This document shows, piece by piece, positions 24,343 through 33,034 of a stretch of DNA of 64,000 nucleotides. The position numbers were made by a program, and so were the translations under genes. The notes beneath the pieces are model-generated. The model was not told the DNA's origin. It did not search any database and saw only the letters and a program-made list of their open reading frames with translations. The stretch is taken from assembly GCF_022213955.1 (NCBI RefSeq), contig NZ_JAKNTW010000001.1:868001-932000 (forward strand), read 5' to 3'. The DNA is from Dolomitihabitans soli (lineage in GTDB: Bacteria; Actinomycetota; Actinomycetes; Streptosporangiales; Streptosporangiaceae). The stretch's first letter is position 1, and the number at the start of each line of letters is the position of its first letter.

Positions 24343-27300
24343 TCACTTCGCCGGTTTGAAGGTGTCGGAGAAGCCGTTGAAGAAGCGCAGATCGTCCTTC
24401 CACGTGTCGGCCAGGGTGTGCCAGTAGATCGCGTAACCCATGCCGCCGTCGGTCACGAACCCGCGGTTGATCACTCGCGCCTTGCCCGAACTCATCCGCC
24501 AGGTGAACTCCCAGTCGGCGGCGGACTTCATGTAGTCGACCTTCTCGATCTTGACGCGCTTGTATCCGGGGAAGTTCGGCCTGGACGCGCCTTCCTGCAC
24601 GTACCAGTCCTTCAACGGATCCGGCCCCGGGTTCGCCGTCTGGTCGATCAGCAGATAACTGGCCGCCGTCGCCCCCGGGCCCCTGAACCACACCGAACCC
24701 CCGGCCCGCTTCGACACCTTCCACCCCTTCGGCAGCCCGATGGCGAACCCGTTGTCGTCCTTGTGCAGCCGCCACCCCTCGGGCAGCGCTCCGGCGGGTT
24801 CCGCCGTCTTCGGATCGTCCTTCTCGCCCTTCTCCTCCGTCTTCGGATCCGTCTTCTGGCCGGTTCCGGGGTCGGTCGGGGACTTTCCGTCGTTCTCCGA
24901 AGCTCCGCCGGGGTCACCGGAGTTCCCCGGCTCCGTCGCCTCGCTGGTGGCCTCCGGCATCCCGTCCGGTGAGGTCTCCGACGCGCTGCGCATGCCCAGC
25001 CACCAGGCGACCCCGGCCACCACCAGTACGGCGATCACCACCACGGGCAACGCCTTCCGGATCGACGGCATCCCCGGCCATCGATCCCAGGCTCGCTCGG
25101 GCAGCACCATCCCATCCGGCTCCGCGTCGTGCCGGTCGGCGCCGAAGAACCCCGACTGCCGGGACACGGCCTCCTGCATGATCGTGGCGGTGGGCCGGGA
25201 GACGGGCCGCTCCGCCCGCTGCCGCACGGCAGGCGGTTCAGCCCGTTGCCCGCCACCGGGCCGCTCGGCCTGCTGCCGTACGGCGGACGGCTCGGTCGGC
25301 CGCCGCGAGGTGCGGCCGGGCCCCTGGCCGCCGGAGGCATCCGGTTCCCAGCCCATCGGGAGCCTCGGCTGCTCCCGCCGTACGTCGTCGCGGGCCTTGA
25401 GCCGCGCGGGATTCTGGAGTTGCGCGGTCGGCCGCTCGGGTTCGACCTCTCCAGACGCCCCCACGGCGGTCCGCCCGGCGCCGGGTCGTCCGGCTGCGGG
25501 CTTGTCCTGCTCGGCCCGCACGCTCGCGTCTGCGGGCCCTGCGGCGTGCTCTCTCACCCCGGCTCGTCCGGCCGCGTGCTCGTACGGGTCGCGCCGGGTG
25601 GAGGTGAGCCCCGGCTTGGGCTGCCCGGTCTGGGGCCTGGCCGGCCGGCCAGGGACGTGACCGGGTACGGGGGCGCCGTCCGCGTCGTCCGCGGGCGTCT
25701 CCTGCGTGGGCTCCTGCGTGGGTTTCGGCGGGGTCTTCGGCGCTTCGGTCGCGGCTGACGGGGACGTGGCCGACCGGAGGGCGGGCGGCTCGGTCGCCTC
25801 CGGTGCCGTGTCGGTGGCGCCCTTCTTCGTGGGGCCGTCGCTGACGAGTGTGCCCGTGCCGACGATGGACGCGTCCATGCGGAGAGCCGGTGCGTCCAGG
25901 TCGGGATCGGTCGCGTTCTGGCCGAAGTCGGGAAGGTCCAGTTCGGTCGAGTCCGGGTCCCGGCTCGGCTCGTCCAGGTCCGGATTCGTCGTGTCGGGCT
26001 CGGGGGTGTCCGGGGTCTGCGCAGGGGTGGCCGCCGACCCGGTCGCCGTCTTGGTCGTTCCGGAGCCGCCCGTATCCGCCGCGTCCGATGGTCCCGGGGG
26101 CCGGTCGCCGGCTGCGGAGGCGTCCTCGTCCGATCGGGATCCGGTCTTCTTCGCGGAGGTGGACGCGACGTCCGGTGCGGCATCGGCCTTTCCGAGGTCC
26201 GCTTCGGGGGCGTTCTCGGCGGCTTCCGCGTCGGCCGTGGGCGCCGCCTCGGATCGCGACTCCGCTGCGAGGTCCGTCCCGGTTCCCGGTTCGGACCGCG
26301 TCTCTCCCGTCTGGGGTCGTGCTTTCCCGCCGGTTCCCGGCTCGGCGTCCGTCGCCGCCGGCCGGGGTCGCGGGGTGGGGCCGGTCCTCGCCGGGGCCGC
26401 GGTCCCGTCCTCGGACTCCGCGGCGGTGCCGGGGGCCGGGGAGGACCCGGTCGTGGCCGTCGCGGCGTCCTCCACCGCGGCCTCGTGATCCTCGCCCGCC
26501 ACCGGAGCGCCGTCCGGTCGCGGAGCCTCGCCGCCCCCGGGTACGGCGGCGGCGGCCTGGGCGAGTTTGCCGGTCGGCTCGTCGCCGGCGGGGTCCGGCC
26601 CCGCGGCCGCCTCGTCCGCGGGCTTCTGCTGCGCCGCCTTGCGGGTCCTGGCCTTGGCGGTGGTCGTCTTACGGCCGGCGGGCGCGCCGGCTGGGGCCGG
26701 GGAGGCCGCGTCGCCGGTCTCGGGCGTGGCCGCCTCGGCGGAGGCGGCCGGCTTGCGGCCCTTCGTCTTGGCCGTCGAGCCGGTGGCCGGTTTGGCCTTG
26801 TTGCCGGCAGCGGTTTTGGCCGTGCTGCCGGTGGTGGTCTTGGCCGTCTTGGCCGAGGTGCCGGCAGCCGTCTTCGGGGTGCTTCCGGTGGCCGTCTTGG
26901 CGGTGCTTCCGGTGGCGGGCTCGGCCGTGGTCCCGGTCGCCGGTTCTGAAGTCGTCCCGGTGGCTGGTTCGGCCGGGGTGTCCGTCGGCGGAGTGGCCGG
27001 GGACTCGGTCGTGCTCTCTTCGGCGGTGGCTGCCTTGCCGCCCGTGGCGGCGGGGGACGTCCGGCCGCTCTGCGCCGTGCGGGAGGCGGCCGGCTCGGCG
27101 TCGCCGGACGTGTCCGACGGGGCGGCCTCGCCGTCGCCGGACGTGCGCGCCGTGGCCTTCGGTGCGGCCGGCTTGCGGGTCCTGGACTTGGCCGGGGGAC
27201 CGGTCGCGCCGGACGTGGACTTGGCCGCGTCGGGCGTTTCGGGGTCACCGGCGGCGGCTGGTACCGCGTCCCCGGCGGTGGGGGTCTCGGGGTCACCGGG

Positions 27301-29214
27301 CGCGGATGAGCCGGGCGGGGTCCTGTCGTCCCCGGAGACGGAGGGCGCCGTCTTCGCGGGGGCGGCCGGCTTGCGGGCCTTCGGCTTGGCCGTGCTCTTG
27401 GCCGCAGGGGCCGCCGAGGTCCCCGTCGCGGGTTCGGGGGTGGCGGCTTCGGGCGGGACGGGATTCTGACGGGTCGCCTGCGGGGCCGGATCCGGAGGTG
27501 TCTCCCGCTCCCCGGGCTCGGCGCGCGTCGCGGACGGTCGCCGGGCCGGGGCGGCGACGGGCTTGACCGGCTGCTCGGCGGGGGCGGGCGGGCCGTCGGA
27601 CCCGGTGCTACCGGCCGCCGACTCGTCGGCGCCACGTGCGGGGAGGTCGGGCTTGGGCCAGTCGCCCTTCGGCGCGGCCTGCCCGAAAGCTCCCACGCTG
27701 CTCGGCGCGGCCTGCTCGAAAGCTCCCGCGCTGCGCGCCGGCTGGGCGTACGGCGGGCGGCGGTGGGGACCCTGGGCGGGCTGGCCGGTCGAGGGCGGCT
27801 CGGCGGACGGCTCCGGGCCGGAGGTCTTCGGGGCGATCTGGTCCAAGGCCGCCGGTTCGGGCAGGTCCCGCCGGGGAGTCGCCTGCGCGGGCCGTACGGG
27901 CTCGGGGGTGGCCGGCGGGGCCTTCGGCGTCGCGGGGCCGGGTGTCTGCCTTTGGGGCGCCGGTCGCGGCCTCTCGCGCGCCGGGGGAGCGGCCGCGGAT
28001 GGAGCGATGCGGGTGGGGGCCGGTGCCGCCGGTTCGGGGTTGACGGGCGGCGCTACCCGGGTGGGGTCGACCGGCGGCGCGATCTGGGTGGGGTTCGGGA
28101 CTTCCCAGATGAGCGTGGCGTTCGGGGGCTCCTGGTCGAGGGCCGGGCTGGGAACCGGGCGGATCGGGGCGGGGCGTGGGGGCTGCCGGACGGGGGGCGC
28201 CGGTCGCGGCGGCCTGGCCGCCGGGGACGCGGGCCGTGGCGGTTCCCGGTCCGCGGGCCGCGGGGAGCCCGGCGGGCGGGCGGGACGCGGCGGGACGGGA
28301 ACACCCGGGGAGGGCGCCGCGCCGGGCCGAGGGCCGGCCGGGGTCACGGGACGGGCGGCGGAGACGGCGGGCCAGGGACGGGTGGGGGAGCCGCCTTCCA
28401 GGACACGGCTGAGCATCCGGCTGGCCTCGTCGTGGGTGAGGCGCTGCACGGGCTCCTTCAACAACAGCCCTTCGATCACCGGAAGGAGGGGGCCGGCGTG
28501 GGGAGCGGGGTCCGGCGGGTCGGTGAGGACCGAGTGCATGGTGGCCATCGCGGCGCCCCGGTCGTGGGGCGGGCGGCCCTCGACCGCCGCGTAGAGAGTG
28601 GCGCCCAGCGACCACAGGTCGGACTCGCGTCGCGCGGGACGGCCCTGGAGCCGTTCGGGGGCGATGAAGGCGGGCGTGCCGGCCAGGCCGGTCATGGTCA
28701 GCGAGGTCTCGGCCTCCAGCGTGGCGATGCCGAAGTCGGTGAGCACCACCCTGCCGTCGTCGGCCAGCAGAACGTTCTCCGGCTTCACGTCGCGGTGCAG
28801 CACCCCCGCGCGGTGCGCGCTGCGCAGCGCGTCGACGACCTCCAGCCCGATCTTGGCGACCTGGCGCGGGGGCAGTGGCCCGTCCTCGCGGATCACCTGG
28901 CCGAGGGACCGCGACGGGACGAGTTGCATGACGATCCAGGGGCGGCCGTCCTCCTCGATCACGTCGTGGACGACGACGACGTTGGGGTGGCTCAGCCGCG
29001 CCGCGGCTCGTGCCTCCCGCAGTGTGCGCCGGTTGAGCTGTTGTACCTCGTCACCCAGCACGCTGGCGTAGCGCACCTCCTTGACGGCCACCTGGCGATC
29101 AAGCAGATCGTCGTGGGCGGCCCACACCACACCCATGCCGCCGCGCCCGATCGCTTCGACCAGATGGTAACGCCCGGCGACCACTCGTCCGCTGTGCTGC
29201 TGCCCGTCCGACAT
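24343..29214 (-). CDS. Giant membrane Ser/Thr protein kinase with extracellular sensor-like domain
   Basis: 1623 residues from ATG 29214. Kinase domain about 12-280: GRGGMGVVW, Lys 45, HRDVKPEN (Asp 142), DFG at 160-162. About 1100 residues of Pro/Ala/Thr/Glu-rich disordered sequence follow, including a repetitive section of TGSTAKTA-like units. A single membrane helix lies near 1385-1405 ([18 protein letters not shown]). Outside are an acidic linker and a folded-looking C-terminal domain of about 150 residues with GFAIGLPKGWKV and DWYVQEGASRPNFPGYK, like the PsbP/Mog1-type modules of other actinobacterial kinases. The strand opposite has long spurious open frames. Substrate and ligand are unknown. 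Confidence 0.88.
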   Translation of the reverse strand: MSDGQQHSGRVVAGRYHLVEAIGRGGMGVVWAAHDDLLDRQVAVKEVRYASVLGDEVQQLNRRTLREARAAARLSHPNVVVVHDVIEEDGRPWIVMQLVPSRSLGQVIREDGPLPPRQVAKIGLEVVDALRSAHRAGVLHRDVKPENVLLADDGRVVLTDFGIATLEAETSLTMTGLAGTPAFIAPERLQGRPARRESDLWSLGATLYAAVEGRPPHDRGAAMATMHSVLTDPPDPAPHAGPLLPVIEGLLLKEPVQRLTHDEASRMLSRVLEGGSPTRPWPAVSAARPVTPAGPRPGAAPSPGVPVPPRPARPPGSPRPADREPPRPASPAARPPRPAPPVRQPPRPAPIRPVPSPALDQEPPNATLIWEVPNPTQIAPPVDPTRVAPPVNPEPAAPAPTRIAPSAAAPPARERPRPAPQRQTPGPATPKAPPATPEPVRPAQATPRRDLPEPAALDQIAPKTSGPEPSAEPPSTGQPAQGPHRRPPYAQPARSAGAFEQAAPSSVGAFGQAAPKGDWPKPDLPARGADESAAGSTGSDGPPAPAEQPVKPVAAPARRPSATRAEPGERETPPDPAPQATRQNPVPPEAATPEPATGTSAAPAAKSTAKPKARKPAAPAKTAPSVSGDDRTPPGSSAPGDPETPTAGDAVPAAAGDPETPDAAKSTSGATGPPAKSRTRKPAAPKATARTSGDGEAAPSDTSGDAEPAASRTAQSGRTSPAATGGKAATAEESTTESPATPPTDTPAEPATGTTSEPATGTTAEPATGSTAKTATGSTPKTAAGTSAKTAKTTTGSTAKTAAGNKAKPATGSTAKTKGRKPAASAEAATPETGDAASPAPAGAPAGRKTTTAKARTRKAAQQKPADEAAAGPDPAGDEPTGKLAQAAAAVPGGGEAPRPDGAPVAGEDHEAAVEDAATATTGSSPAPGTAAESEDGTAAPARTGPTPRPRPAATDAEPGTGGKARPQTGETRSEPGTGTDLAAESRSEAAPTADAEAAENAPEADLGKADAAPDVASTSAKKTGSRSDEDASAAGDRPPGPSDAADTGGSGTTKTATGSAATPAQTPDTPEPDTTNPDLDEPSRDPDSTELDLPDFGQNATDPDLDAPALRMDASIVGTGTLVSDGPTKKGATDTAPEATEPPALRSATSPSAATEAPKTPPKPTQEPTQETPADDADGAPVPGHVPGRPARPQTGQPKPGLTSTRRDPYEHAAGRAGVREHAAGPADASVRAEQDKPAAGRPGAGRTAVGASGEVEPERPTAQLQNPARLKARDDVRREQPRLPMGWEPDASGGQGPGRTSRRPTEPSAVRQQAERPGGGQRAEPPAVRQRAERPVSRPTATIMQEAVSRQSGFFGADRHDAEPDGMVLPERAWDRWPGMPSIRKALPVVVIAVLVVAGVAWWLGMRSASETSPDGMPEATSEATEPGNSGDPGGASENDGKSPTDPGTGQKTDPKTEEKGEKDDPKTAEPAGALPEGWRLHKDDNGFAIGLPKGWKVSKRAGGSVWFRGPGATAASYLLIDQTANPGPDPLKDWYVQEGASRPNFPGYKRVKIEKVDYMKSAADWEFTWRMSSGKARVINRGFVTDGGMGYAIYWHTLADTWKDDLRFFNGFSDTFKPAK

Positions 29215-29428
29215 CACCGACTTCGAACCCCCTCTCAAGGCGAGAAATCCTCCCATAGCGGGGGATTGGGAGCGACCGGATGCGAGAGCCGGGCTCCTCG
29301 ATCTCTCCTAACGTCGTCCGCCGACGATCTCGTCCCCCGGCCGTCCACACCCCGGGCACGAGTCCGCATGGTGAGAACGATCATCCACAGAGTGGCGTAC
29401 GGCAGGACGATGGCCTAAGGTCAGGAGC

Positions 29429-29488
29429 ATGACTCGCTATTTCTCCTTTATCGAGCCGGCTCCGGGAGGGCCGGTCGCACCAGCGTGA
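29429..29488 (+). CDS. Tyr/Phe attenuation leader peptide
   Basis: 19-codon open frame beginning MTRYFSFIE, with one Tyr and two Phe codons at positions 4, 5 and 7, then a Pro/Gly/Ala-rich end. AAGG is eight bases and GGAG one base upstream of the ATG. It is followed by a nested hairpin and an intrinsic terminator before a chorismate-mutase fusion gene. Leader peptides with clustered aromatic codons control aromatic biosynthesis genes by ribosome stalling; aroR ahead of a DAHP synthase gene in Corynebacterium is a known parallel. Translation here is inferred. Confidence 0.72.
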   Translation: MTRYFSFIEPAPGGPVAPA

Positions 29489-29511
29489 TCTAGCGACCAT
29501 CCGGAGCCGGC
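29455..29511 (+). promoter_or_regulatory. Leader hairpin upstream of the terminator (attenuator stem)
   Basis: GCCGGCTCCGG (29455-29465) is perfectly complementary to CCGGAGCCGGC (29501-29511). Nested inside, GGTCGC (29473-29478) pairs with GCGACC (29493-29498). The 5' arm covers leader-peptide codons 9-13, and the peptide stop codon lies in the apical loop. A ribosome stalled on the Tyr/Phe codons would mask the 5' arm and change the folding. Confidence 0.65.
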
Positions 29512-29515
29512 CAGA

Positions 29516-29549
29516 GGCAGAGACATCCCAGTCTCTGCCCTTTTGTTTT
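29516..29549 (+). terminator. Intrinsic terminator of the aromatic leader
   Basis: GGCAGAGAC (29516-29524) and GTCTCTGCC (29531-29539) form a perfect nine-base stem with a six-base loop, followed by CTTTTGTTTT. It is the clearest Rho-independent terminator in the window and lies about 80 bases before the structural gene, as an attenuator should. Confidence 0.85.
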
Positions 29550-29628
29550 CCCGAGATCAGCGTGTCGTCCGACGCGCGTTTCGACGCCGGCTCGTGGATT
29601 GGCGACCGGCTGACCATCAGGAGCCGAG

Positions 29629-30573
29629 ATGTCATCTGCCGCACAGATGTCCCGTGAGGCGAAAGCCGTACACCTGGGGGCGACGGCGCTGGGAGCGGGG
29701 CCCGCCGTGGTGATCGGTGGTGGGCCGGAGGCCGAGCCGGACGCGCGCTGGATCACCCTGCGCACGCAGGGCGGGGGACGTGAGGCCCGCGAGGCGATCG
29801 AGGAGGCCCGGTCCGACTGGCCGGGGGCGTTGCTGGTGGAGCCGTTCCGGGTGGCGGATCTGCGGTGGATCGGAGAGCACGCCGACGGTGTGGTCGTGGG
29901 CGGGGCGTGGCTCCGGGACGTCCGGCTCGTGCGGGAGGCGGCGACGCTCGGGTTGCCGGTGGTCGTGCAGCGGGGTTCCGCGGCGACGCTCGTGGAGTGG
30001 CTGGCGATCGCCGGGCAGTGCGTGGCGGAGGGCAACGATCAGGTGGTGCTGTGCGAGACCGCCGGCCGTGCCCACGGGGTGGATCTCGCGCTGATGCGCG
30101 AGGCGCGGACGCGTTCGGGGCGGCCGGTGCTGGTCGCGCTCGGCGACGACGCCGGGCTGGCCGCCGCCGCGATCGCCGCGGGAGCCGACGGGCTGCTGCT
30201 CGCGCCCGAGGCGGACGCGGAGGTCGTGCGGGCGGCGATGGAGGCGGCGACCATCGTCGGCGCGGTGGTGCGCGGGGAGATCCCCGACTCGGTGACCGCG
30301 GCGAGGGCGGCCATCGACCGGGTGGACGCCGTGCTGGCCACGATGCTGGAGCGCCGCGCCGAGCTGGCGGGCGTGATCCAGCGGCTCAAGCCGGTCGGCG
30401 GGTTCGCGGGCCGCGACATGGAGCGCGAGCGCCGGGTCGTGGCGGCCATGGCGCGCCGCGCGCCGCGCCTGGGAGAGGTACGGCTGGCGCCGGTCGTGAA
30501 CGCCGTCATCGAGGCGGGGCTCCACCTGGCGGAGGAGGAGCGAGGGCAGCGAGACCAACGCCCGGGCAGGTGA
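29629..30573 (+). CDS. Chorismate mutase fused to a degenerate DAHP-synthase-like domain
   Basis: 314 residues. Residues about 1-215 resemble type I-beta DAHP synthase (GLPVVVQRGSAATLVEWL, AEGNDQVVLCE). However, the metal Cys motif near the N-terminus (GPC-A/S-VE) reads GGPEAEP, and the PSHATG His motif reads ALGDDAG. Residues about 222-305 are an AroQ-type chorismate mutase with candidate active-site residues R226, R243, K254, D263, R266 and E267. Chorismate to prephenate is therefore the likely activity; the N-terminal domain is probably a catalytically dead scaffold or effector site. The attenuator upstream with Tyr/Phe codons supports a Phe/Tyr pathway role. Mutase activity is inferred. 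Confidence 0.75.
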   Translation: MSSAAQMSREAKAVHLGATALGAGPAVVIGGGPEAEPDARWITLRTQGGGREAREAIEEARSDWPGALLVEPFRVADLRWIGEHADGVVVGGAWLRDVRLVREAATLGLPVVVQRGSAATLVEWLAIAGQCVAEGNDQVVLCETAGRAHGVDLALMREARTRSGRPVLVALGDDAGLAAAAIAAGADGLLLAPEADAEVVRAAMEAATIVGAVVRGEIPDSVTAARAAIDRVDAVLATMLERRAELAGVIQRLKPVGGFAGRDMERERRVVAAMARRAPRLGEVRLAPVVNAVIEAGLHLAEEERGQRDQRPGR

Positions 30574-30767: not shown

Positions 30768-31460
30768 CTAGGCGCGGCGGGGCGGGTGGTCGTCGTGGGC
30801 GTTCGCGAGGAGCCCGTCGACGAAGGCGCGAAGCCCCTGTGCGTAGGTGTCCCGGGCGGCCAGGGCGGGCCAGCGGTCGGCGAGGGCCGCCAGGTGCGGA
30901 AACCGCGCCGGGTCGAGCTTGCTGAGCAGGGTGTCGCGGTGCGAGGGGCGGTCGAGTTCGCCGCGCCGGCGAGCGGCGTTGGCCCTGACGAGGATCTCGC
31001 CCACCGTGTAGTACCAGATGGCGCGGTAGAGGTCGGCGGCCTGTTCGGTGGTGCATCCGCAGTCGACGGCCCCCGCCACGATCGTCTCGACCATCCACAT
31101 GGCCGCCTCGCCGGCGCGGTCGTCGGCGGTGAGGATCTCGGTGATCCACGGCCAGGCGGCCAGCGAGTCGTGGATGGCGCGGGCGGCCGTGATGATGCGC
31201 TCCCGGGGATCGGCGGGTAGCGGGGGGCGCGGTATCTGGTCGGCGTAGTCGTTCAGCAGCTGCGTCAGCAGGTCTTCCTTGTCGCGCACATGGTGGTACA
31301 GCGTCGTCGGAGCGGTGCCGGCCTCCGCCGCCAACCGCCGCATCGTCAGCTTCTGCCACCCGTCGCGATCGATCAGCAGCCGCGCCGCGGCCATGATCTG
31401 CATTCGGGAGGTCCGCGGCGGACGACCGGTGCGACCGGATGGTGAGACGGATTGCGGCAT
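30768..31460 (-). CDS. TetR-family transcriptional regulator
   Basis: 230 residues from ATG 31460 (a GTG codon directly upstream is the alternative). An N-terminal helix-turn-helix lies at about residues 20-65 (LTMRRLAAEAGTAPTTLYHHVRDK), then a TetR C-terminal ligand domain with TetR_C-like helices. It is divergent from an MFS transporter 300 bases away, and a perfect palindrome lies between them, so repression of the transporter and of itself is the simplest model. The ligand is unknown. Confidence 0.9.
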   Translation of the reverse strand: MPQSVSPSGRTGRPPRTSRMQIMAAARLLIDRDGWQKLTMRRLAAEAGTAPTTLYHHVRDKEDLLTQLLNDYADQIPRPPLPADPRERIITAARAIHDSLAAWPWITEILTADDRAGEAAMWMVETIVAGAVDCGCTTEQAADLYRAIWYYTVGEILVRANAARRRGELDRPSHRDTLLSKLDPARFPHLAALADRWPALAARDTYAQGLRAFVDGLLANAHDDHPPRRA

Positions 31461-31542
31461 CACTCCATCATGCTGCCTCCCGTCATCCGGGGCGAACCCG
31501 ATGACCCGGGACCCGTGTATCGACGGCCGAGCGCCGCCCGTG

Positions 31543-31762: not shown

Positions 31763-33034
31763 ATGACGAAAGACTCGGGGGCTGGCACCCGGCCCATCCT
31801 GCTGATCTGCCTGGCCGTGTTCGGGCTCATGACCGGCCAGCAGATGGTCAACCCGATCCTCGCTCCGCTCGCCCGCGAACTCGGGCTCAGCGAGCTGCAC
31901 CTGGGCATCGTGATGACCGTCGGGGCATCGGGCGTCGTGCTGGCCAGCCCGTTCTGGGGACGGCGCAGCATGTCGTGGGGGCATCGGCCGGTGCTTCTCC
32001 TGTCGCTCGCCGGAGCCACCATCGGTCTTGCCGCGTTCGCGGTCATCGCCCAGATCGGTCTCACCGGCGTGCTCGCCGTACCACTGCTCTTCGGGCTGAT
32101 CCTGCTCAGCCGCAGCGTGGTGTTCGGGCTCGCGTGGGCCGCCACCCCGGTCACCGCCCAGTCCTACGTCGCCGACATGACCTCCGGTGAAGGCGAGCGG
32201 GTCCGGGGCATGTCCATGGTGGGCGCGGCCCAGGGGCTGGGCATGGCCCTCGGCCCGGCCCTCGGCGGAGTGCTGGTCTTCGGCGGCCTGCTGGTTCCCC
32301 TTTACGCGGCTCCGATCCTGATCGCCGTCATCGCGGTCCTGGTCTGGGCCGGTCTGCCGCGACCGGACGCCCACCGGACCCGGCCGGCGACGGCCGAGGT
32401 CAGCCCCTTCGACCCCCGCATGTGGCCCTTCCTCGCCGCCGGGTTCGGCATGTTCCTCTCCTTCGGCATCGTCATGATGACGATCGGATTCCTGCTGCAG
32501 GACCGGTTGCACCTCACCGCGCAGCAGACGGGCCAGACGACCGGCCTGGTCATGCTGGCCGGCGCGGGGATGATGATGCTCGTGCAGGCGGCCGTCGTCC
32601 CGCGCCTGGGCTGGTCACCGGTGCGCCTGATCCGGGTGGGAGCGATCGTCATGACCCTCGGCATGGTCATCATGATGATCTCCACGAACACCCCGCTGTT
32701 CGCGGCGGGGCTGGCGGTGCTCGGGACCGGGATGGGGTTCGGCCTGCCGGGGTTCATGTCCGCTCCGACCCTCCTCGTCACCAGGGAGGAACAGGGCGCG
32801 GTGGCCGGGCTGGTCGGCTCGAGCAACGCCCTCACCTTCATGTTCGGCCCCCTGGTGGGCACCGCCCTGTACGAGCTGGCGCCGATCGCCCCCTATGTTC
32901 TCGGCACGATCGTCCTCGCCGGGCTGGTGGTCTTCGTTCTCCTTCACCCCGGAGTGCGCCAGAGGCCGGTCGAGGCGCCGGCGACCACGGGGGAGGTCGA
33001 GGAGGTCCTCGGCACGGCAGGCCCGGGAGTGTGA
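31763..33034 (+). CDS. MFS transporter, probable drug/metabolite efflux
   Basis: 423 residues with 12 predicted membrane segments. The loop after helix 2 (SPFWGRRSMSWGHRPVLLLS) corresponds to the MFS signature A motif, and helix 5 contains GAAQGLGMALGPALGG, a motif C-like antiporter stretch. These point to a proton-driven drug:H+ antiporter. A GAGGAG ribosome site lies five bases before the ATG. The divergent TetR gene and palindrome suggest induction by a substrate. It converges on the PBP gene with a 19-base gap. Confidence 0.88.
   Translation: MTKDSGAGTRPILLICLAVFGLMTGQQMVNPILAPLARELGLSELHLGIVMTVGASGVVLASPFWGRRSMSWGHRPVLLLSLAGATIGLAAFAVIAQIGLTGVLAVPLLFGLILLSRSVVFGLAWAATPVTAQSYVADMTSGEGERVRGMSMVGAAQGLGMALGPALGGVLVFGGLLVPLYAAPILIAVIAVLVWAGLPRPDAHRTRPATAEVSPFDPRMWPFLAAGFGMFLSFGIVMMTIGFLLQDRLHLTAQQTGQTTGLVMLAGAGMMMLVQAAVVPRLGWSPVRLIRVGAIVMTLGMVIMMISTNTPLFAAGLAVLGTGMGFGLPGFMSAPTLLVTREEQGAVAGLVGSSNALTFMFGPLVGTALYELAPIAPYVLGTIVLAGLVVFVLLHPGVRQRPVEAPATTGEVEEVLGTAGPGV

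Follow-up and report, generated by a model that had tools for sequence, protein, structure and literature searches.

The leader region and its gene

The stretch of DNA that we analysed, here called the window, is 64,000 nucleotides long and contains a gene for a protein of 314 residues in which a DAHP-synthase-like domain is fused to an AroQ chorismate mutase (CM). Residues 226-295 match the Pfam family CM_2 and residues 74-147 a portion of the DAHP synthetase I family, which bears out the CM fusion gene of the original prediction. Aligned with solved DAHP synthases only part of the barrel is covered, and the KRG motif, whose lysine is catalytic, reads QRG, so the N-terminal domain is probably an inactive relative of the synthases. 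At a cut-off of E 0.001 the gene is the only CM_2 match in the source genome (10.8 Mb in 81 contigs), and a type II DAHP synthase is encoded elsewhere in it. Also in the window, on the minus strand, are an ORF of 1637 residues (24343-29256) with an N-terminal kinase domain and a very long repetitive stretch rich in Pro, Ala and Thr, and a TetR-family regulator (30768-31463) that adjoins and diverges from an ORF of 423 residues (31763-33034).

Upstream of the fusion gene there is a short leader ORF (Table 1). It had been predicted from the sequence to carry Tyr4, Phe5 and Phe7 and to be followed by two perfect stems, one of eleven bases with its 5' arm in leader codons 9-13 and one of nine bases with a U-rich tail, and all of these are found. 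The nine-base stem (arms D and E) is the sole terminator-like site between 29300 and 30700, where shuffled sequences have a mean of 0.2. The leader-terminator piece folds with -56.7 kcal/mol (z -4.69), and none of 200 shuffles came as low. Its most stable fold when no ribosome is present contains the A:C hairpin. Perfect 11-bp repeats with a loop of 15-60 nt occur three times in the window and 0-7 times per dinucleotide shuffle (n=10), and the A/C repeat alone therefore proves nothing; it is the conservation that does.

Table 1. Positions of the leader element and the gene downstream of it, counted from the first nucleotide of the window
Feature	Position	Strand	Remark
-10 promoter element, TAAGGT	29416-29421	+	7 nt upstream of leader ATG; predicted
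Leader ORF, MTRYFSFIEPAPGGPVAPA	29429-29488	+	ATG 29429-29431, 19 codons, TGA 29486-29488
Tyr4 codon, TAT	29438-29440	+	Leader codon
Phe5 codon, TTC	29441-29443	+	Leader codon
Phe7 codon, TTT	29447-29449	+	8 nt upstream of arm A; TTT near-invariant; probable main sensor codon
Arm A, GCCGGCTCCGG	29455-29465	+	Leader codons 9-13; pairs with C
Arm B, GGGCCGG	29468-29474	+	Alternative partner of A within the leader ORF
Arm B2, GGTCGC	29473-29478	+	Pairs with C2 around the stop codon
Arm C2, GCGACC	29493-29498	+	Partner of B2; B2:C2 is nested inside A:C
Arm C, CCGGAGCCGGC	29501-29511	+	Perfect 11-bp complement of A
Intrinsic terminator	29516-29549	+	Arms D and E with tail
Arm D, GGCAGAGAC	29516-29524	+	
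Arm E, GTCTCTGCC	29531-29539	+	
U-rich tail, CTTTTGTTTT	29540-29549	+	
Arm F, GCCGGCTC	29586-29593	+	Copy of arm A; second possible partner of C
Shine-Dalgarno region, AGGAGCCG	29619-29626	+	Copies part of arm C
DAHP-synthase-like domain fused to AroQ CM	29629-30573	+	314 residues

Distribution and conservation of the element

A covariance model built from 16 elements (R1) finds the element in 209 of the 297 genomes of the order and in 49 of 394 genomes of the class, among them Micromonospora-like genomes of another family. With a second model, R2, built from 32 elements, the numbers are 65 of the 394 genomes of the class and 88 of 201 genomes of the family around genome G626. The source genome itself has one credible R1 match, which is the window site (E 1.9e-16); the next three have E values of 0.2-1, and one of these lies on the other strand of the same site. 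Both the element and its leader ORF are kept in all 15 relatives (L002-L016) with an orthologue or a monofunctional mutase, a count that for the leader leaves out a partial second copy at a contig end in G028, and similar elements stand before DAHP synthases in other families, also outside the order. Among the matches listed, we rejected eight R1 or R2 matches without an aromatic gene (L090, L092, L153, L157, L159, L160, L162 and L163), all with an E value of 1.7e-4 or weaker.

A fetched subset of the R1 and R2 matches makes up the 132 element rows that are counted below, 75 before CM genes and 57 before DAHP synthases; twelve loci were fetched twice (nine and three, respectively), so that the distinct elements number 66 and 54. 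The counts for leaders, codons, terminator probabilities and C:F pairing use all rows, those for accessibility and spacing exclude the duplicates, and the rows are related, so the counts are not independent. The gene type of 23 rows was first set by clade, and tblastn then confirmed the type in all 57 DAHP-synthase rows and in 73 of the 75 CM rows, the other two (L081 and L083) being cut short by contigs. Seven Corynebacterium-like loci stand outside these rows; this label, like Micromonospora-like and Nocardia-like, is inferred from gene and leader.

The transcript is predicted to be leaderless and to start at or next to the leader ATG. A TAnnnT motif, the form in which the -10 element of Streptomyces lividans is given in the accessible text of PMC8079986, is found 6-8 nt upstream of the chosen leader start in 130 of the 132 rows and in none or one of them at six places shifted 12-42 nt further upstream; our choice of leader starts favoured those with a -10 element of this type.

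Pairing between A and C is possible in 93.4% of the cells of an alignment of 32 diverse elements, while slid controls reach at most 48%. Double changes occur in five of the ten pairs, and the covariation score of 0.169 (shuffled 0.089) was not equalled in any of 500 shuffles, although these numbers, as well as those that follow, overstate the independence of elements that are related. The inner helix B2:C2 is paired in 99.5% of the cells in 35 close relatives, with double changes in two of six pairs, and in 81.3% over 16 more diverse elements. In the set of 32, the alternative A:B helix is paired in 96.9% of the cells and has a double change in one of its five pairs, which is no better than in shuffles.

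The sensor place, Phe7 in the window, reads TTT in 74 of the 75 CM rows (the exception, L161, is a weak match), and TTT is otherwise a rare codon, used for two of the 66 Phe codons in five ORFs of the window taken as genes. This codon is probably the main sensor of the leader. Three codons before it there is a Tyr codon in 46 of the 75 rows (TAT in 40, TAC in six), and several CM leaders lack a Tyr codon and have a single Phe codon (MTRRIRFIRPAPGGPAARV, MHRCHAFTEPAPGGPVARA). In the comparison of orthologues that the original prediction proposed as a check, the A:C stem covaries and the Phe7 codon hardly varies, but the conservation of Tyr4 and Phe5 is partial. The C-terminus of the leader peptide is unconserved, as its length and frame vary, and the aromatic codons are kept; what has been conserved is thus the RNA arms and not a function of the peptide.

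Proposed control of the chorismate mutase

The element is real and conserved, and it is best read as a ribosome-mediated attenuator of the chorismate mutase of the cell that senses Phe and possibly Tyr. We consider it quite likely that the region controls the only AroQ chorismate mutase detected in the genome in this way. The earlier reading as an aromatic amino acid attenuator is thereby upheld, with parts that are conserved, an A:C stem that covaries and codons that largely follow the function of the enzyme. The accompanying statement that all parts of such a system are present goes too far, as we found no arm capable of opening the terminator.

By script, a terminator was found between leader and gene in 68 of 80 rows, counted after the 52 rows of family f6 had been set aside. 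In these 68 elements the modelled probability of the D:E stem is at least 0.70 both when no ribosome is present and at eight ribosome positions around TTT (mean 0.94-0.96, lowest 0.71). An arm that competes with D or E was seen neither in the folds of 16 elements, in which the terminator formed, nor in the 68 that were modelled. Since the terminator stays formed in all modelled ribosome states, a classical antiterminator of the trp type, competing with a terminator arm, appears to be absent. The attenuators of pheA and pheST in E. coli rely on competing terminator and antiterminator arms and differ from the window-type elements in this respect, whereas pheL-pheA shares with the window a Phe leader peptide, a gene containing a chorismate mutase and read-through of a terminator; the comparison was made by description only. 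Both E. coli systems are named in the accessible text of PMC11802643. Three Micromonospora-like elements (L079, L082 and L087) keep the leader and A:C and have no U-tailed terminator, as judged by script or by eye, which points to control in these genomes by a step different from intrinsic termination.

That A:C is the most stable fold even without a ribosome means that thermodynamics does not set the direction of the switch. If the transcript starts at the leader ATG, ribosomes would load at once, and their position would determine whether the A:C/B2:C2 hairpin sequesters arm C. A shortage of charged tRNA-Phe, or of tRNA-Tyr, would stall the ribosome at the TAT, TTC or TTT codon just before arm A, and when the supply is ample it would reach the stop codon, which is located between arms A and C. 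In the wiring that we prefer, a ribosome stalled at TTT would leave B2 and the outer half of A free, so that A:C could form together with B2:C2; when the front of the ribosome is past TTT, the modelled fold of the window does still contain B2:C2 and the outer part of A:C. The A:C helix would then abut the base of the terminator and could hinder its closing inside the RNA polymerase, with read-through into the mutase gene as the outcome. With ample Phe, the ribosome would sit between A and C, arm C would be free and the terminator would end transcription. We prefer a steric block because the distance between C and the terminator is so short: D starts 0-4 nt 3' of C in all 58 elements that the script could place, out of 73 examined and with up to 8 nt allowed. 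As no modelled ribosome position unfolds the terminator, the action of arm C on it is something that we infer.

The main rival to a steric block is control of the translation of the mutase. The terminator would then be a fixed brake, arm F would, in the transcripts that get past this brake, pair with either the ribosome site or C, and a stalled ribosome would free C and hence the ribosome site. We find this rather unlikely, but some features downstream of the terminator speak for it. C:F pairing, for which, as in the accessibility tests, some gene starts were set by hand from the sequence, is on average better than in shuffles in all eleven clades, although weak in several. It is clear in the clade of the window (f1, 44 rows with duplicates included, mean z -2.2), in f6 (38 rows, -2.6) and in g41 (four rows, -2.3), and weak in f21, f3, g47/51 and the set of monofunctional mutases; in f21, f3, f38 and f48 it is no better than with arm C from other clades. 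One of the clade labels, f49, mixes L152, which belongs to family f6, with L158. The motif GGAGCC, which copies arm C, occupies the ribosome site of 27 of the 37 close relatives examined, compared with six of the 54 GGAG sites before window ORFs of at least 150 codons. The window has A:C and C:F states of similar energy, and masking of A favours C:F. The fold of the whole read-through leader with TTT masked also favours C:F over A:C, which speaks against the wiring that we prefer. In the model, the accessibility of the ribosome site across 37 relatives of clade f1 increases from 0.35 without a ribosome to 0.41 with a +14 mask, which raises it in 23 of them, and to 0.59 with a +17 mask. The gain in f21 is smaller (0.35 to 0.43, a rise in six of 11), and outside these two clades the pattern speaks against translation control: accessibility does not rise in the monofunctional set (0.43 to 0.34) or in g41 (0.32 to 0.32), it hardly changes in g47/51 and f3, and it is up in 15 of 40 f6 leaders. 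In 44 DAHP-synthase sequences a hairpin at the ribosome site exceeds shuffles somewhat in stability (mean z -1.11), but downstream of the terminator 41 CM elements fold about as their shuffles do (mean z -0.36), and the G:S pairing is weak (mean z -0.63, one of 44 below -1.64). We rejected the ribosome-site hairpin as a general second layer of control, its support being weak across the sets.

The wiring could also be the reverse, with A:C promoting termination and a ribosome that stalls at TTT lowering it by preventing A:C. Given the size of the ribosome footprint, some 5 nt of arm A would lie under a ribosome at the near-invariant TTT, and A:C is, as stated, the default fold of the leader-terminator piece. 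The terminator, however, forms equally well with A masked. Moreover, in two elements before DAHP synthases (L148 and L150) arm C and the next arm make up a terminator with a tail of U6-7, a plain three-arm attenuator in which A:C would be the antiterminator. We therefore hold this opposite wiring to be unlikely.

Codon content and related leaders

DAHP synthase feeds the synthesis of Phe, Tyr and Trp, and chorismate mutase only that of Phe and Tyr. A TGG codon occurs among the five control positions in all 57 leaders before DAHP synthases (56 identified by script, L151 by eye), against none of the 75 CM leaders, although one of these, L043, carries a Trp codon two positions downstream of TTT. 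In the Corynebacterium-like leaders before DAHP synthases Trp is found in four of seven and missing in three, so the codon rule is not universal. Codon content nevertheless seems mostly to follow the products of the enzyme controlled, as it should where amino acids are sensed by a ribosome that stalls, and the window's own leader, which is predicted to be translated, is the short ORF with codons for the end products that attenuators in general have. The split in Trp between the two groups may stem from a single evolutionary change or from a few.

The same observations bear on the two readings in which the leader senses no amino acid. A leaderless small gene or a small RNA with its own terminator, standing before the mutase by chance, would fit a repeat that in a single sequence is not beyond chance. 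It would fit badly with arms and codons that are both conserved, with a CM or DAHP synthase gene 3' of the element in 130 of the 132 rows (contig ends truncate the remaining two), with a peptide whose C-terminus is not conserved and with a Trp codon that largely tracks the type of enzyme, and we regard it as very improbable. A metabolite- or protein-binding RNA, such as a riboswitch or a T-box, with an incidental leader ORF would account for the strong conserved structure but is hardly credible with a leaderless start and aromatic codons that are retained near-perfectly, and no Rfam family matches the window at the gathering score (the two sub-threshold matches, E 0.048 and 4.9, are both on the other strand).

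With Phe-sensing attenuation as the preferred reading, it is possible, if doubtful, that in Actinobacteria two enzymes of the aromatic pathway share a portable leader module, and that before CM genes the Trp codon has gone while the sensing of Phe and Tyr has been kept, with a steric hairpin and no shared antiterminator arm. Such a shift of codon content with the enzyme controlled would be a natural experiment. The element adds a candidate for control at the RNA level of the Phe/Tyr branch in Actinobacteria, a group rich in antibiotics derived from aromatic compounds, and it is a clear target for deregulating the supply of Phe and Tyr in production strains. An attenuator without a visible antiterminator also makes the question of mechanism testable.

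Attenuation of such a gene was thought to be undescribed in this group. That holds in so far as the accessible parts of the open-licence literature gave us no description of a leader upstream of a chorismate mutase gene in Actinobacteria, and not for DAHP synthases, as an aroR-aroF attenuator of Corynebacterium glutamicum was reportedly described by Neshat et al. in 2014. In the available text of PMC11802643 and PMC4046766, aroR is a Phe-Tyr-Phe leader before the DAHP synthase gene aroF; according to the former, transcription of aroF goes up under limitation of Phe and the supply of Tyr is without effect, and the latter gives the aroF leader as predicted. We found a Corynebacterium-like DAHP-synthase locus in seven of 16 genomes searched (L169-L175), and the primer sequence that the accessible part of PMC7356990 gives for the region upstream of aroR is present in L175. 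Like the window, these seven loci have a leaderless-type start, aromatic codons, arm A, a stop codon, arm C and a U-tailed terminator a few nt from C. Their leaders (e.g. MFVWRFYFGEAPGLSDSHHRLAVSPAR) have the order Phe-Tyr-Phe or Phe-Tyr-Tyr, with arm A, as judged by eye, 8-9 nt after the last Phe or Tyr codon. They precede a DAHP synthase, the enzyme that the aroR family controls, whereas the gene in the window joins a CM to an incomplete DAHP-synthase-like domain. Since R2 gives no match to the seven loci up to E 10, we claim a likeness of working and not membership of the aroR family.

The leaders of the actinobacterial trp, ilv and leu genes, as described in the accessible text of PMC1262725 and PMC8079986, are also short, often leaderless and placed before amino acid genes, but they concern other amino acids. 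In the Actinobacteria studied there, the available part of PMC1262725 gives no conserved RNA structure before Phe/Tyr operons. It does describe a LEU element before leuA with a possible pseudoknot, which, compared by description only, resembles a pairing between the start and the stop region of the leader (P0) in the DAHP-synthase leaders. The window's family differs from the LEU element here, as P0 is paired in 82.1% of the cells against 82.0% in shuffles. In the clade of the window (37 rows) the longest P0 helix has a mean of 5.4 bp, compared with 5.3 bp when leaders of other clades are used, and P0 was dropped from the model of the window because it is not supported in this clade. The corresponding means are 7.6 bp against 4.7 bp in the f6 DAHP-synthase leaders (46 rows) and 7.2 bp against 4.3 bp in Corynebacterium (six rows). 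In the DAHP-synthase leaders of another family (L089, L096, L097 and L105-L155), mostly with the order Tyr-Phe-Trp-Phe, the start can pair with the region of the stop codon (e.g. CAGCGC with GCGCTG, or GTCAGCG with CGCTGAC) and would cross A:C in a pseudoknot-like manner.
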